A stretch of 64,000 nucleotides of DNA, taken from NCBI GenBank assembly GCA_026003175.1, contig BPGT01000002.1, forward strand, positions 682,001 through 746,000. Reading direction: 5' to 3'. The notes beneath the pieces are model-generated. The model saw only the letters and a list, made by a program, of their open reading frames with translations, was not told where the DNA came from and made no database searches. This stretch comes from Armatimonadota bacterium (GTDB taxonomy: Bacteria > Armatimonadota > HRBIN16). Positions within the stretch are counted from its first letter, which is position 1. Each line of letters begins with the position of its first letter. A program made the position numbers and the translations under genes. Shown here in pieces: positions 6,218-11,715 of the stretch.

Positions 6218-6324
6218 TGCTTTTTCGTTTTGTACGTCGCTGCGGGCTTACTGTTCTTCGCTCAACCAGTCCTCCAGTAGGAGCTCAGACACGCACTGGA
6301 AATGTTTTCGGTTAGGAAGTCCAG

Positions 6325-6462
6325 CTACGCCTGCAGGCGGGCAGACCTCTCCCCAGCAGGCGAGTATAACAAAATCTCCACTTCCTGTCCGTCGGTGACG
6401 TGTATATCCTGCAACGGACGGAGCACGCCACCCTCTACTCTGGCTCTGAGCACGGTAATCAT
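6325..6462 (-). CDS. Small DUF104/AF2212-like protein (antitoxin-like), possibly frameshifted
   Basis: This 45-residue gene starts at an ATG nine bases after GGAGGAA. It reads MITVLRARVEGGVLRPLQDI and then DGQEVEILLYSP. The layout of beta strand, (E)GGVLRPL, DGQEVEI is that of DUF104 (AF2212-like) proteins, often the antitoxin partner of PIN toxins in archaea and bacteria. No PIN gene follows here. A second frame on the same strand is open through 6248 and ends with the protein-like stretch LLLEDWLSEEQ before TAA. The gene may therefore have lost its tail by a frameshift. It lies about 110 bases upstream of the nicotinamidase and could share its transcript. Confidence 0.6.
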   Translation of the reverse strand: MITVLRARVEGGVLRPLQDIHVTDGQEVEILLYSPAGERSARLQA

Positions 6463-6519
6463 TGTTCTATTCCTCCTGCAACTCCATTATATCACAGGCA
6501 AACCGTCAGGCAATTACTC

Positions 6520-6548
6520 TTGACAACCTGCATACCTTGTTTTATGAT
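6520..6548 (+). promoter_or_regulatory. Consensus-like sigma-70 promoter for the split LuxR-type regulator
   Basis: A perfect TTGACA (6520-6525) is followed by TATGAT (6543-6548) with the ideal 17-base spacer. Transcription would begin near 6555, about 27 bases before the ATG at 6582. It is one of the best promoter matches in the window. Confidence 0.7.
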
Positions 6549-6581
6549 ATTGCCAGCATTTTATCGCAAGAGGTATCCTGT

Positions 6582-6674
6582 ATGCCTACTGTATGGCTGA
6601 TCTGTCCTGACGCGGTGTTGCGAGAACGGCTGTTGCGGTGCTTGCATGATGGGGAGCAGGTGGGGTATGCGTGA
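6582..6674 (+). CDS. 30-residue leader ORF, translationally coupled to a LuxR-type HTH protein
   Basis: The ATG at 6582 has an AAGAGGT-like site upstream and lies behind a strong promoter. The product begins MPTVWLICPDAVLRERLLRC and stops at TGA 6672-6674, overlapping the GTG of the next gene as GTGA. Its sequence (VWLIC, then LRERLLRCL) resembles the first strand and helix of a response-regulator receiver domain. It may be the N-terminus of a protein continued in the next frame (CVADAVVVVPP), or a true coupling peptide. Too short to name. Confidence 0.4.
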   Translation: MPTVWLICPDAVLRERLLRCLHDGEQVGYA

Positions 6675-6976
6675 AGCCGTGCGTTGCGGATGCGGTGGTG
6701 GTAGTGCCTCCTGTGTTCACACAGGCTCAGGTGGAGACATTGCAGGCGTATGTGGACACGGGCAGTGTGCGTGAGGCGGCGAGGCGCAGGTGCTGTTCGG
6801 AGCAGACGGTTCGGCGTCATCTGGCGGCGGCGCGAGCGCGGATGGGTGCGCAGAACGTGGCGCAGTTGGTGCACGTGGCGTGGGTGTTGGGAGTATTAAC
6901 CGCTCCGTCTAGTACAAATTGGGTACAAAAATGGCAAAAATGGACTATTGACACGGGGGGGGACAGAGTAGAATAG
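6671..6976 (+). CDS. LuxR/GerE-type helix-turn-helix transcriptional regulator
   Basis: The 101-residue protein starts at a GTG inside the GTGA overlap with the 30-codon ORF. Residues roughly 22-70 form a GerE-type DNA-binding domain: GSVREAARRRCCSEQTVRRH, an LAAARARMGAQNVAQLVHVA stretch, then WVLGVL. This matches the alternating helix pattern of LuxR-family HTHs (skip-over of a Cys-rich turn, SEQTVRRHL recognition helix, M/LGAxN). The short N-terminal CVADAVVVVPP looks like the end of a degenerate receiver domain. There is no phosphoacceptor Asp. The C-terminal tail after WVLGVL has unusual composition and overlaps the promoter of the next gene. It probably controls the downstream cassette (inference from position). 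Confidence 0.72.
   Translation: MKPCVADAVVVVPPVFTQAQVETLQAYVDTGSVREAARRRCCSEQTVRRHLAAARARMGAQNVAQLVHVAWVLGVLTAPSSTNWVQKWQKWTIDTGGDRVE
6948..6974 (+). promoter_or_regulatory. Probable promoter for the Cys-rich/polymerase cassette
   Basis: TTGACA (6948-6953) and TAGAAT (6969-6974) are separated by 15 bases, two short of ideal. A short spacer can mark an activator-dependent promoter, and the LuxR-type gene lies immediately upstream. AAGGAGG (about 6992-6998) follows before the ATG at 7012. Confidence 0.45.
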
Positions 6977-7011
6977 AGGTAGAAAACTCTCAAAGGAGGA
7001 GGTCAATCAAA

Positions 7012-7479
7012 ATGCGCCAAACAAAGGCTATGTTGTGGACGGCCTTAGTAATACTGGTTATGGTAGTGTGTGCCGTCACAGCCACCAGCGTTTTAACAGG
7101 CGAGGTCATGGCGTGCCCTGACGATGCTGGATGTTATGGAGATGTTCTGGTTGCCCCGTTAGAAGCGAGTTACATCCCGCCGCAGGAAGGCGCTCCGCCT
7201 GCTCGCGTACTGTACGAGTACAGATGCTCTTCACAACATGTGGCCAAGTGCTTATCGCAAGATTGCACTAACGGCTTGGGGTGGGTAGGGGGGACAGCAT
7301 ATGCTAGCAAAAAATTTGTTTCCGACAATGTTCCCTACCCTCGCTGCATACATACAGGAAAAGCTAAAGACAAGTGCTATTACTTCCCACAACAGTGTGG
7401 AAGCTTCTACTACTATCTTTTGAGCAATTGCATCCTGCAGGTATACTCGAAGCCTGGTTACCTAGAGAAGTGCTCATAG
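7012..7479 (+). CDS. Secreted cysteine-rich protein of unknown function
   Basis: No family is recognised. The 155-residue product has a clear signal peptide (basic MRQTKAM, then a hydrophobic helix to about residue 25). The mature part holds ten cysteines, many spaced as small loops (CPDDAGC, RCSSQHVAKC, DC, KDKC, QQC, SNC). An even number of Cys in an exported protein suggests disulfides. Aromatic clusters (FYYYLL, CYYF) stand near the C-terminus. It has a strong ribosome site (AAAGGAGGAGG) and its own promoter, so it is probably well expressed. It is the first gene of a three-gene unit with the LolA-like protein and the Wzy-GT51 fusion. Possible roles are a secreted structural or recognition protein, or a substrate of its neighbours. 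Confidence 0.6.
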   Translation: MRQTKAMLWTALVILVMVVCAVTATSVLTGEVMACPDDAGCYGDVLVAPLEASYIPPQEGAPPARVLYEYRCSSQHVAKCLSQDCTNGLGWVGGTAYASKKFVSDNVPYPRCIHTGKAKDKCYYFPQQCGSFYYYLLSNCILQVYSKPGYLEKCS

Positions 7480-7507
7480 CCAGTCCCAGGCACTCTTGGG
7501 GAAGCAT

Positions 7508-8689
7508 ATGGCTAGCGTGCTTAAGAACTTCAAGCTGGCTGTGATGGCGTGTGCAATCGCAGCCAGCTTAGGATGTTTTTCACTCAGGCAAGGTAGGAGG
7601 GCGAGCGAGGCAGAGCCTTGTGATGACAAAGCGTTCTGCGAAGTTGCGCAATTCTGCGCATATGCGCAGCAGGGTACTCCCGCAAGTCATTTCATTGGTG
7701 TAGCCGATGAGGCTTCACGGTCAATTCGAACGATCAAAGCCGATGTTTCTGTGATTGAGAAACTTCACGAACCTGCCAACCAGGGTCATTGTCGGGTGAC
7801 AACGCAACGGAACACTGTGCAATGGACACTCGACTTTGAGAAGCGTCGATATCACCTAAAGAGGCTAGACGGAGACGGTACATATGTGGAGGGAGCATGT
7901 GGCACCGATACATGTGCGGTTCTACGGCGCGTTCAACAGGGTAAAATACTTTTTAGTGCTACAATTGCCAAATCATCGGAGCAGGACATTAGAGATTCTG
8001 TTGTTGAAGAGGAAACCACAGTATGGTGGTTGGAGTTTTTAAATCTCCACCGGGAAGTCGCATTAGCTAGCATCCCCAATCTCGGCGAAAGAAGGCTCAG
8101 CGTGTGGTATGGGAACGCGCCTGAAGCAGCGTCTGCCGCTGAGGTAGAGATTGTTGCCGAAACCAATCTGCCGCTGTTTGGCGCCTGTCAAGTAGTGCGT
8201 ATAGTATTCAAGCAACCAGAATTGCGGCGTGATGTCGAGATGTGGGTATGGCTAGCGTCACAGAATGGGTTGCATGCCGTAAGAAGTGCGATTTACGCTA
8301 AAAGCACAGGAGGACTGGTAATCCGTGAGGTATTGCGTGGCTTCCGATATGCAGGTGTATACCTGCCTATCCACATGCGAGAAGCTGTATACTACACATC
8401 GCCTTCGCAGCAAAACGTGCCTTTGAGCGACAGGCGTGCTCACCTTGCAATCCTGCGGGAGATAAAGCTTGATAGGGTAACGGTTAACACCCCTCTGGAC
8501 GAGTCCGTTTTCGAGTTTGAAATTCCCAAAGGCACGCTTATCGAGGACAGACTCAGAGGCAAGGTCTATGTGGAGCAAGTAACACGACCTGCGTGGTTAC
8601 CAATGGCAGTGGTCGGGGTAGCTGTATTGGTGACATTGTACATCTTTGGGCATCTGCGCCAGTTATTAGTGAAAAGTCGTTCAGATTAA
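7508..8689 (+). CDS. Exported, membrane-anchored protein with LolA-like outer-membrane-lipoprotein-sorting features
   Basis: The 393-residue protein has an N-terminal hydrophobic segment ending at SLGC, which is only a weak lipobox. A Cys-rich stretch follows (PCDDKAFC, QFCAYA). The middle part begins SRSIRTIKADV and has alternating beta strands (VQWTLDFEKRRYHLKRLDGD, VWWLEFLNLHREVALASI), as in LolA/LolB/RseB-type half-barrels. A C-terminal transmembrane helix (LPMAVVGVAVLVTLYIFGHL) is followed by a short basic tail. The likely start is ATG 7508; TTG 7496 is possible. It lies 28 bases after the Cys-rich gene and 13 before the polymerase fusion, so the three are probably co-transcribed. The LolA link is a fold impression, not a motif match. 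Confidence 0.5.
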   Translation: MASVLKNFKLAVMACAIAASLGCFSLRQGRRASEAEPCDDKAFCEVAQFCAYAQQGTPASHFIGVADEASRSIRTIKADVSVIEKLHEPANQGHCRVTTQRNTVQWTLDFEKRRYHLKRLDGDGTYVEGACGTDTCAVLRRVQQGKILFSATIAKSSEQDIRDSVVEEETTVWWLEFLNLHREVALASIPNLGERRLSVWYGNAPEAASAAEVEIVAETNLPLFGACQVVRIVFKQPELRRDVEMWVWLASQNGLHAVRSAIYAKSTGGLVIREVLRGFRYAGVYLPIHMREAVYYTSPSQQNVPLSDRRAHLAILREIKLDRVTVNTPLDESVFEFEIPKGTLIEDRLRGKVYVEQVTRPAWLPMAVVGVAVLVTLYIFGHLRQLLVKSRSD

Positions 8690-8702
8690 TGGAATATAAC
8701 AG

Positions 8703-10784
8703 ATGCGAGCAGCAGTTTACCGCATCATCAAAGAGCATATACTGCGTTTGACCTGTTGGGAGGTTGTACTGTATTTTGTCCTCTTCCTTTACGTTGTGTC
8801 GCCATTTCATCCATATCTCTGGTATGTATTTCCAGGAATCCATGAGGGATTCCGCGTCGCTACAGTGGAGTTCTTCGGTACTGAACTTTATTTCCTGAAC
8901 TACACGATACTCGCGGCACTTATCCTCAGCCTGTTCGTATTAACGTGTTGTGGTAGGCAGCAGTATCCGATCTGGGGTTCGCCGCGTATGGCTCTTCTTT
9001 CCCACATGCTGTTCGCATCATTGTATTTCCACGACTTCTTTTTGTCGCGTGCGCCTTTCTACGAGTACGCCATACTTTCCATCGTAATACTTCCGCCAGT
9101 TGTATGGCTGTCTGTTCTTCTCTTCGCAGATCAGATAAAGGCTCTGCGTCTGATAAAAACAACGGCGCTATTCATCACTATCCAGAGCATGTATGGGGTC
9201 GCGTATTATATGACAGGCACAGAACAATTCTACACACCCCAGTTCGGCGCGCGAACAGCAGGGACACTAGAGTCACCCAATAACCTGTACCCTTTAGCGC
9301 TGATGGGAGTACCCCTCTTATGGTGCTTGGCGAGTGGCGCTCATTCTAGATGGGAAAGAGCACTCTGGTGCACTGGTCTGGCAATTACTTTTCTGGCATT
9401 AATCTTTACGTACACACGAACCGGTTGGCTGGCAGTCATTCCTGTTCTGCTCTGGCTAGCGTTTCATCCCCATTCCTGCGTATCTACCGGAGTATCTAAG
9501 CGTATCGTCGTGCTGGTATGCACAACACTTTTTATCGCAACGGTCTTCGTGAGGACAGGGGGAAACTACCTTGGACATTCGAGTGACCGGTCGTTGCATG
9601 GACGGTTCGCCATCTGGAAGGTTGCGTTAAAAGTATGCACCCTTCATCCGTGTATAGGAAATGGATTGAATACCTACCCGTGGTTGCAGCAGCAAGCGAT
9701 GACCCCCGAGCTGGCGTCATTCGGTGCAGGTAACGAAGAGGCAAAAAACTTGTTCCTCAACCTGTTTGTAGAATTCGGTGCTGTGGGGCTTATCCTGTTT
9801 CTTATGGCGATGTTCAGCTATATCGCTTTGATTCGCCTCCGACTACCTGAGATCGAGAGCAGTGCGTTGCGATGCGCTGTCTCTGGCTGTTACATGGCGG
9901 TGGTTTCCGTGCTGCTGGCAAGCTTCGGGGATACGCCCATTTTACACTTCAGACGTCTTGCCCCAACGCTCGCTTTCGCAGTTGTGATTGCGTCTAGTAC
10001 GGTGATTGCTGGAGGGTATCCTTCCGCATTTGTGTCATCTGCCAAACACAAACAACCAGACTCACTCATCCCTATTGTTTTTCAAAGGCTCCTGCCGGCG
10101 GGGATACTGCTGCTGTTTCTTCTATTAATCCCTCTGCTCTCAGGTTACCTGCAGTTTCTCCACTACCGAACTGCTATCCCATCTTACCGCACCCTTACAC
10201 CTGCCCGTGCGCTATTCACCCCGCTGGCAGAGGTTGCCGAGCCGATGCGCTATACCCTCATCGCCTCCGAAGATGGCAACTTCTACCAGCATCATGGCGT
10301 GGACTGGCAAGCCCTGCACCGCGCCCTGCGCGTCAACATCCGAAGCCTCTCTTACAAACAGGGTGGCTCCACCCTCACCATGCAGACCGCACGCTATCTG
10401 TTCGTGGGCAGAGAAAAAAGCCTCTCGCGCAAACTCGCCGAAATCCTGCTGGCACTGGAGATGGAGAAGCGGCTTTCCAAAGAGCGGATCCTGGAGTTGT
10501 ATCTGAACAGTGCGCGTTTCGGGCTGGGTGCAGAGGACATTGGCACAGCGTGTCGGGTGTATTTTGGCAAGCAGCCCAAAGAGTTGACGTTGGCGGAGTC
10601 GGCATTTCTGGCAGGGGTATTGCCGGAGCCGCCGAAGCGTCGTGAGGAGTTGACGTTGGAGAAGGTGGAGCGTTGCAAGCGGAGGGCGTTGAGCCGGTTG
10701 GGTTATTTCTTCGGGTGGCGTTATTCGCCCGAGCAGATAGAGCGGGCGATGCAGGAGAAGATAGTGTTCGTGTGGGAGAGGTGA
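8703..10784 (+). CDS. Fusion of an O-antigen ligase/Wzy-type membrane polymerase with a GT51 peptidoglycan glycosyltransferase
   Basis: The first ~440 of 693 residues form about ten membrane helices with O-antigen-ligase/Wzy_C hallmarks. These are FTYTRTGWLAVIPVLLWLAF, GRFAIWKVALKVCTLHPCIG with NGLNTYPW, and AKNLFLNLFVEFGAVGLILF. A last helix (about 465-485) leads into a complete-looking GT51 domain. Its motifs are IASEDGNFYQHHGVDW with the catalytic Glu, GGSTLTMQTARYLF, RKLAEILLALEMEKRLSKER, ILELYLNSARFG, VYFGKQPKELTLAESAFLAG and LPEPP. The GT51 domain would sit outside the membrane, as in monofunctional MtgA. No transpeptidase domain follows. The two halves differ in base composition, the GT51 part being richer in GC. 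It may polymerise and attach a lipid-linked glycan; function is inference, while the domain calls are strong. Confidence 0.85.
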   Translation: MRAAVYRIIKEHILRLTCWEVVLYFVLFLYVVSPFHPYLWYVFPGIHEGFRVATVEFFGTELYFLNYTILAALILSLFVLTCCGRQQYPIWGSPRMALLSHMLFASLYFHDFFLSRAPFYEYAILSIVILPPVVWLSVLLFADQIKALRLIKTTALFITIQSMYGVAYYMTGTEQFYTPQFGARTAGTLESPNNLYPLALMGVPLLWCLASGAHSRWERALWCTGLAITFLALIFTYTRTGWLAVIPVLLWLAFHPHSCVSTGVSKRIVVLVCTTLFIATVFVRTGGNYLGHSSDRSLHGRFAIWKVALKVCTLHPCIGNGLNTYPWLQQQAMTPELASFGAGNEEAKNLFLNLFVEFGAVGLILFLMAMFSYIALIRLRLPEIESSALRCAVSGCYMAVVSVLLASFGDTPILHFRRLAPTLAFAVVIASSTVIAGGYPSAFVSSAKHKQPDSLIPIVFQRLLPAGILLLFLLLIPLLSGYLQFLHYRTAIPSYRTLTPARALFTPLAEVAEPMRYTLIASEDGNFYQHHGVDWQALHRALRVNIRSLSYKQGGSTLTMQTARYLFVGREKSLSRKLAEILLALEMEKRLSKERILELYLNSARFGLGAEDIGTACRVYFGKQPKELTLAESAFLAGVLPEPPKRREELTLEKVERCKRRALSRLGYFFGWRYSPEQIERAMQEKIVFVWER

Positions 10785-10962
10785 ACCTCACCCCCGTCCC
10801 CTCTCCTACAAGGAGAGGGGTGCCTGCTGACGTTTCCCCCTTCCCTCGTAGGGAAGGGGGGGCAGGGGGTTAGGTTGCCGAAGTTTACCTCACCCCCGTC
10901 CCCTCTCCTACAAGGAGAGGGGTGCCTGCTGACGTTTCCCCCTTCCCTCGTAGGGAAGGGGT
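10785..10962 (+). repeat. Tandem pair of ~75-base intergenic units, each with two hairpins (REP-like)
   Basis: A unit at 10785-10860 recurs at 10887-10961 with nearly no change, offset 102 bases. Each unit holds two perfect palindromes with 3-base loops. In the first copy these are at 10798-10820 (10-bp stem, CCCCTCTCCT arm) and 10836-10860 (11-bp stem, CCCCCTTCCCT arm). The array sits between the stop of the fusion gene and the ribosome site of the prepilin gene. It could act as a transcription barrier or mRNA-stabilising REP/BIME-type element. No transposase is nearby. Confidence 0.75.
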
Positions 10963-10989
10963 TAGGTCAACTAAAAAGGAGGTTCTACC

Positions 10990-11715
10990 ATGTGCCGAAA
11001 AGGCTTTACCCTGATGGAACTGCTGGTGGTCATTGCGATTATCGCCCTGCTGGCGGCGTTGATTTTTCCCGTCTTCTTTCGCGCCCGCGAGGCAGGACGC
11101 AAGACCACCTGTGCCTCCAACGTGCGCCAGTTGGCGCAGGCGTGGGTGATGTATGCGCAGGATTGGGATGAATGCACGCCCGGAGGCGCATACACCCGCT
11201 TCGCCGACAAATACACGGGCAGAAGCCCCGACGGCAAACGCTACACCGCGCTGTGGGCGTTGTTGCCATACGTGCGCAGCGACAAGATTTTCGTGTGCCC
11301 CACGCAGTTAGGCTGGGACTTCAGCACCACGAACCCTGCACTGGACACCCACCGCCCCCGTCAGGGCAGTTACACCTCCAACTACGAGGTGATGGACATC
11401 CCCCTGTCGGCGATAGAGCGGGTGTCGGAGCTCATCGTGTTTGCGGACAGTTACAACCCGTGGATGGACTGCATCCATGACTGCAGCAACTGCACGGGCG
11501 GGTGTAGCAGTTTCGTGTGGGATAGGATAGGCCGGGGATGTTATCAGGGGGATTGCACGAAGCGAACGGACTGGCATGATGGTGGCATCAACATGGTGTT
11601 TGCGGACGGTCACACACGCTGGGCGCCGCTGGGCGGGATATATTATCGCAACTGGAAGCGTGACCTGCCGGAGTGGGACCCTCACTGGAACAAGCCGATT
11701 ACGCAGGACTGGTAA
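10990..11715 (+). CDS. Prepilin-type secreted protein with H-x9-DG motif (DUF1559-like)
   Basis: The 241-residue protein begins with a type IV prepilin signal: basic MCRKG, the cleavage Gly, then [20 protein letters not shown]. The ELL glutamate is at the expected +5 position. The mature part continues [20 protein letters not shown] with [16 protein letters not shown], the usual opening of these pseudopilins. It ends with [13 protein letters not shown], the H-x9-DG motif near the C-terminus. Such proteins are massively expanded in Planctomycetes and Armatimonadota and are exported by a type II secretion/pilus-like machine; individual roles are unknown. A Cys-rich insertion ([12 protein letters not shown]) is present. 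AAAAGGAGG precedes the ATG. A second family member lies at 62490-63269. Confidence 0.85.

Follow-up and report, generated by a model that had tools for sequence, protein, structure and literature searches.

A WaaL-like Wzy_C domain fused to a GT51 peptidoglycan glycosyltransferase in an exchangeable, pilin-associated gene cassette of Armatimonadota

Here, we report a protein of an Armatimonadota bacterium in which, by profile and motif comparison, an intact GT51 peptidoglycan glycosyltransferase domain was shown to be joined to a WaaL-like GT-C domain that keeps the two arginines of the undecaprenyl-pyrophosphate site. The two enzyme classes that meet in this chain, the Wzy/ligase enzymes and the GT51 enzymes, both use undecaprenyl pyrophosphate-linked substrates and are normally separate proteins. 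Each domain is known and the architecture is new; nothing relevant to the Wzy_C–GT51 architecture or to the surrounding cassette was found in the literature searched, the coverage of which was incomplete. As the best explanation, we tentatively propose a bifunctional inner-membrane enzyme that may polymerize lipid II and also transfer a glycan from an undecaprenyl carrier to an exported protein of the same cassette. The gene lies in the window, that is, the whole stretch of 64 000 nucleotides that was analysed, and the positions of its features within the window are given in Table 1.

Table 1. Features of the fusion gene and its cassette (positions in the window)
Feature	Position	Strand	Basis
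HTH (LuxR-like) regulator remnant, split by a frameshift	6459-6973	+	Regulator profile; two overlapping frames, 6459-6671 and 6650-6973
Small Cys-rich secreted protein, 155 aa, possible acceptor	7012-7479	+	Hydrophobic N-terminus and ~10 cysteines (inspection)
Exported protein, 397 aa	7496-8689	+	N-terminal hydrophobic segment and C-terminal membrane anchor; relatives likewise placed in other cassettes
Wzy_C–GT51 fusion protein, 693 aa	8703-10784	+	Pfam, AlphaFold, Foldseek
WaaL-like membrane half, residues 1-487, variable between paralogues	8703-10163	+	Pfam, Foldseek match to WaaL 7tpg, low paralogue identity
Pfam Wzy_C match in the WaaL-like half	9378-9803	+	Pfam
Arg239, putative equivalent of WaaL R215 / PglL R224	9417-9419	+	Invariant in fusions; equivalence inferred from motif
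Arg301, putative equivalent of WaaL R288 / PglL R298	9603-9605	+	Invariant in fusions; equivalence inferred from motif
Lys348 at the ligase-histidine position (WaaL H338 / PglL H349)	9744-9746	+	Alignment with Wzy_C proteins
GT51 domain, residues 502-661	10206-10685	+	Pfam, PDB alignment, motif table, fold
Catalytic Glu523 of GT51	10269-10271	+	PDB alignment, motif table
Second Glu580 of GT51	10440-10442	+	PDB alignment, motif table
DUF1559 pseudopilin, 241 aa, N-methylation motif, possible acceptor	10990-11715	+	Pfam PF07596 and PF07963

Results

Architecture of the fusion protein

The initial annotation had described one unbroken frame holding both an O-antigen-ligase domain and a GT51 domain, and this was borne out: the reading frame starts with ATG and has no internal stop, and both domains matched Pfam above the cut-offs, namely Wzy_C (PF04932) at residues 226-367 (E 5.4e-16, 59 bits versus a cut-off of 31.7) and Transgly (PF00912) at residues 502-661 (E 2e-50, 171 bits versus a cut-off of 27). 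Of the other fusions tested, only the E-type fusion, with 27.3 bits as a whole protein, falls below the Wzy_C cut-off. The nearest solved structure by sequence in a PDB search is the glycosyltransferase domain of Aquifex aeolicus PBP1a (E 2.6e-31), and the search also gave glycosyltransferase domains of other class A PBPs and of MtgA; TIGR02070 also matches the GT51 half, below its own cut-off. A hydropathy count gave 12 hydrophobic segments, the last of which (residues 463-481) stands just before the GT51 domain.

The structure model and Foldseek agree with this assignment. The AlphaFold model, built from a shallow alignment of 22 sequences, is confident in the GT51 region (pLDDT mostly >85) and moderate in the Wzy region (about 37-92). 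The modelled GT51 half matches the peptidoglycan glycosyltransferases 3nb6/2oqo with a TM score of 0.90 over the target, and the N-terminal half matches WaaL (7tpg; E 5.7e-4) over 409 columns with a TM score of 0.44 over the target. The fusion architecture of this reading frame is thus confirmed as real.

Active-site residues

The GT51 motifs are intact, as first noticed from the sequence: the fusion has the two glutamates and an RK motif (R576-K577), and in the motif table every cassette GT51 that extends over these columns has both glutamates and the RK pair. Loss of these residues across homologues, which had been named as evidence against the claim, was not found.

For the ligase half, the reference arginines and histidine (R215/R224, R288/R298 and H338/H349) were taken from PMC3643930. 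Despite strong divergence of the Wzy halves, all fusions share both arginines and several glycines. The histidine position is occupied by Lys in 13 of the 14 distinct fusion ORFs and by His in the remaining one; among the split relatives described below, several also carry Lys and others His, and His predominates in unrelated Wzy_C proteins from the phylum. Because of this replacement, the ligase half is no textbook WaaL or PglL, and the Pfam scan gave no match of the fusion to the PglL-specific domain PF15864 (PglL_A). WaaL H338 has been described as the analogue of the catalytic Asp262 of RodA (PMC10449877). A further variant was observed in four short Wzy_C genes without GT51 (L174-L177), from four genomes of the genus, this genome included, which have Glu at the ligase-histidine position and a pilin gene directly after them.

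The gene cassette

Own profile HMMs revealed a recurrent gene order: a small HTH regulator, a Cys-rich secreted protein, an exported C-terminally anchored protein of ~330-450 aa, in some types an extra protein with weak to clear similarity to DUF1573, and then Wzy, GT51 and a DUF1559 pseudopilin. The cassette in the window comprises a broken HTH regulator, the Cys-rich secreted protein, the membrane-anchored exported protein, the fusion and the DUF1559 pseudopilin. The region 6314-7003 has 90-95% DNA identity to the upstream flanks of the C3 paralogues and forms a constant upstream flank; the HTH assignment, made on an intact paralogue copy of the regulator, is weak. The E-type regulator copy at C2 is also frameshifted; on C3, copies c and d are unbroken and continue in frame into the small secreted protein of copy c.

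Relatives of the Cys-rich protein hold the same place in other cassettes, and the Pfam scan assigned it to no family. For the 397-aa protein, the top PDB profile match was an outer membrane lipoprotein-sorting protein (E 0.17) and one member of its family gave DUF2092 (E 0.036), neither of which is significant, and its AlphaFold model has a pLDDT of 36.5; a LolA/RseB-like fold is suspected only, and a LolA-like identity was dropped.

The pseudopilin has 99% DNA identity to the pilin after paralogue d and forms a constant downstream flank. Nearly every cassette for which downstream sequence is present has a pilin there in the same orientation, often within ~200 bases of the GT51 domain. With only 67 DUF1559 matches across the 4.1 Mb genome, or roughly one every 60 kb, chance adjacency is unlikely. 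In E-type cassettes, a 351-aa gene without a Pfam family (E351; L037:11071-12126) is inserted between the fusion and the pilin. In the window, the gap between fusion and pilin (10784-10990) contains two copies of a short G+C-rich repeated segment (CTCACCCCCGTCCCCTCTCC...), which is probably an interspersed repeat.

In the Pfam and profile scans, no sugar-nucleotide, flippase, Wzz, polysaccharide-biosynthesis or further glycosyltransferase gene was recognized in the cassette, and no LPS core or O-antigen gene was recognized among the neighbours scanned. An LPS or capsule locus was rejected on these grounds.

Fused and split forms

This genome has five GT51 genes, one class A PBP-like and four Wzy–GT51 fusions, the other three fusions being a tandem pair (C3:125298 and C3:130288) and C2:233596. 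In a survey of 291 Armatimonadota genomes, fused ORFs were found in eight genomes of three families: six species of the genus, including this one, G036 (family f15) and G211 (family f31). In a seventh species of the genus (G009), the two halves lie at contig ends. The closest loci among the matches listed in the collection scan were from Armatimonadetes RSWS16, Chthonomonadia Ch118 and Fimbriimonadaceae SJ840, in line with a placement in Armatimonadota; rarer fusions of other phyla may lie beyond the matches listed. The fusion therefore recurs in related genomes; confinement to this assembly would have told against the initial annotation.

That an assembly or annotation error joined two genes could be suspected from the contigs of G001, G002 and G009, which break inside the repeated GT51 region and indicate that it is hard to assemble. 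However, complete fused ORFs with diverged junctions are present in separate assemblies (four in G000, two in G004 and one each in G001, G005, G036 and G211). Because of the three further copies in this genome and the copies in others, the fusion is neither a chance frame nor a misassembly; an artefact has a negligible probability, and we regard this explanation as refuted.

Split forms, in which the separate Wzy and GT51 genes lie close together and keep their common strand and order, occur in G093, G079, G081, G098, G096, G086, G084 and G085, and less tightly spaced Wzy and GT51 genes occur in G029 and G074; in G029, Pfam gave no Wzy_C match for the membrane region of the GT51 protein. In three split cassettes (L047 of G029, L165 of G098 and L167 of G086), the GT51 proteins end in Extensin-like_C (PF06904), a domain related to DD-peptidases, which points to the cell wall.

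In the GT51 tree, which was rooted at the midpoint and in which the 'PBP' label on several split rows reflects only their retrieval under another locus identifier, the split GT51s and the main fused type form one clade (97/92) apart from the class A PBPs, and the main fused clade (99/92) is nested within this split and fused clade. Such a topology suggests that two adjacent genes gave rise to the fusion. The E-type fusion (L005, L014 and L042) has a long branch whose position is uncertain, and with a midpoint root a separate origin of this type is possible.

Two other arrangements were observed. A 963-aa open frame in G026 (L051:9072-11969) combines Wzy_C, an MdcG/nucleotidyltransferase-like stretch and a DUF1559 pilin; it could be a further fusion or several genes read through as one frame. 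In Myxococcota, a 4.3 kb contig carries a monofunctional GT51 gene (motif ASTLTMQ) directly 5' of a Wzy_C gene with the normal histidine (L082:2533-4294).

Exchange and loss of the cassette

Between loci, the GT51–pilin end has about 91-99% DNA identity, and the Wzy half is diverged. When the three main-type copies in this genome are compared at third codon positions, the Wzy halves are only ~20-32% identical, against 82-100% from about residue 518 onwards. The breakpoint lies near residue 518 within the genome and near residue 496 in the comparison with G004, a difference between pairs as recombination would give.

Different cassette types occupy one site in different species. Next to a purB-like gene, G000 has two tandem cassettes and G004 carries another Wzy type, followed by the same 3.3 kb; at the E-type site, G009 has a main-type GT51 and pilin instead. 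G003 has no cassette at the site of the window: the flanks are contiguous, and a piece of the regulator runs directly into the last part of the pilin gene, with ~10 bases of imperfect shared sequence at the join (L189:2300-2465 versus 6482-11604 of the window), and no fusion was found elsewhere in this 93% complete genome. From the type swaps at the same sites and the loss in G003, we conclude that the cassette is accessory and exchangeable. The E-type cassettes of this genome and G004 (L037 versus L039) are ~98% identical over 8 kb, compared with ~93% for the main-type flanks, and the E-type cassette may therefore have moved recently.

Discussion

Proposed function and alternatives

In the bifunctional enzyme that we propose, both active sites would face the periplasm. 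The GT51 half would polymerize lipid II or a similar precursor, giving a short glycan linked to undecaprenyl pyrophosphate, and the WaaL-like half would take such a glycan, most simply the chain made by the GT51 half itself, and pass it, in a PglL/TfpO-like manner, to an exported acceptor encoded by the cassette, either the DUF1559 pseudopilin or the Cys-rich protein. The fusion may serve to hand the substrate from one site to the other, or to keep wall growth and protein modification in one place. Lipid II or the GT51 strand is the simplest donor because no other glycan gene was recognized nearby, and the candidate acceptors are suggested by a parallel with PglL, since 21 of 31 PglL genes lie next to a pilin gene (PMC3643930). 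This proposal is favoured by two domains above their cut-offs with matching folds, by the conserved GT51 residues and the invariant ligase arginines, by the split Wzy, GT51 and pilin genes that stay adjacent and in order, with GT51s in one clade with the main fused type, and by the pilin downstream, the Wzy genes that have a pilin without a GT51 (L174-L177) and the Extensin-like_C domains. Against it stand the lysine at the position of the histidine that is thought to be the catalytic base, the failure to match PF15864, and a cassette that is accessory and absent from one species; the model, which is only moderately good in the WaaL-like half, does not fix the relative placing of the two active sites. 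A bolder form, in which the ligase half moves a GT51-made wall strand en bloc onto the co-encoded exported protein to give protein–peptidoglycan conjugates, and exchange of Wzy between loci changes the acceptor specificity, is doubtful as it stands.

The alternatives differ in what they ask of the Wzy half. Two independent activities may simply be tethered for location, the GT51 domain supplying local peptidoglycan for installing a pilin-like structure through the wall and the WaaL-like half modifying the pilin with an unrelated, lipid-linked oligosaccharide that is synthesized elsewhere in the cell. The split state of several families, which works without a covalent link, the pilin that is always near and the Extensin-like_C domains, which suggest local wall remodelling, are all in keeping with such tethering, but by itself it does not account for the lasting adjacency and eventual fusion of precisely these two enzymes, and we consider it unlikely, although worth keeping in view. 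The initial annotation had instead suggested that a secondary wall or surface polysaccharide, polymerized or ligated by the Wzy half, could be coupled to nascent peptidoglycan. Wzy_C does include both O-antigen ligases and polymerases, the GT51 domain is intact, and the idea of a functional coupling was strengthened by the conserved adjacency of the split genes. The polysaccharide partner gained no specific support, because none of the genes expected of it (sugar-nucleotide, flippase, Wzz or further glycosyltransferase genes) was recognized in the cassette, the gene order of which centres on exported proteins, including a pilin-like one, and points rather to protein modification; we rate this explanation as improbable. 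Much the same low probability is given to a Wzy half that has lost its enzymatic activity and would act as a scaffold in the membrane or as a regulator, in the way that PBPs are regulated by SEDS partners, leaving GT51 as the sole active part. The replacement of the presumed base by lysine, the fast divergence of the membrane half beside a constant GT51 and the membrane region of the G029 protein would fit a scaffold, whereas the two arginines and several glycines, which stay invariant while the Wzy halves diverge strongly, need not be kept by one.

Comparison with known systems

Among the closest known systems are the PglL/TfpO-type protein O-oligosaccharyltransferases (PMC3643930), which share with the fusion the Wzy_C domain, the two conserved arginines, an adjoining pilin-like gene and the lack of an LPS locus; the fusion differs in having no PF15864 match, in the change of the catalytic histidine to lysine in most copies and in the attached GT51. 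Similarly, the fusion matches the fold of the O-antigen ligase WaaL (CAZy GT121; PMC10920833) and keeps its arginines, but it has Lys at H338, no LPS genes nearby and the extra GT51 domain. It has the full catalytic motifs and the fold of the monofunctional GT51 enzymes (MtgA/SgtB) and of the GT51 domains of class A PBPs, although its GT51 is carried on a WaaL-like membrane half rather than on a single transmembrane helix or with a transpeptidase, and forms its own clade with the split cassette GT51s. SEDS–class B PBP pairs such as RodA–PBP2 (PMC10449877) likewise combine a GT-C-type undecaprenyl-pyrophosphate enzyme with a periplasmic wall enzyme, and an arginine element is common to RodA and WaaL; in the fusion, however, the partner is a GT51 glycosyltransferase and not a transpeptidase, the chain is single and the membrane half is WaaL-like and not SEDS. 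Unlike the Wzy polymerases of the Wzx/Wzy pathway, the fusion is found in a cassette without recognized flippase, Wzz or repeat-unit glycosyltransferase genes.

Conclusion

In conclusion, this study describes an exchangeable cassette with a constant end, made up of a wall enzyme and a pilin, and a variable core. The natural fusion, together with the conserved adjacency of the split genes, provides strong comparative evidence that glycan transfer and peptidoglycan polymerization can be one process, and hints at a direct link between the building of the cell wall and the decoration of surface proteins. In a phylum whose envelope biology has been little studied, the fusion offers a concrete candidate for the direct attachment of a wall glycan to protein.
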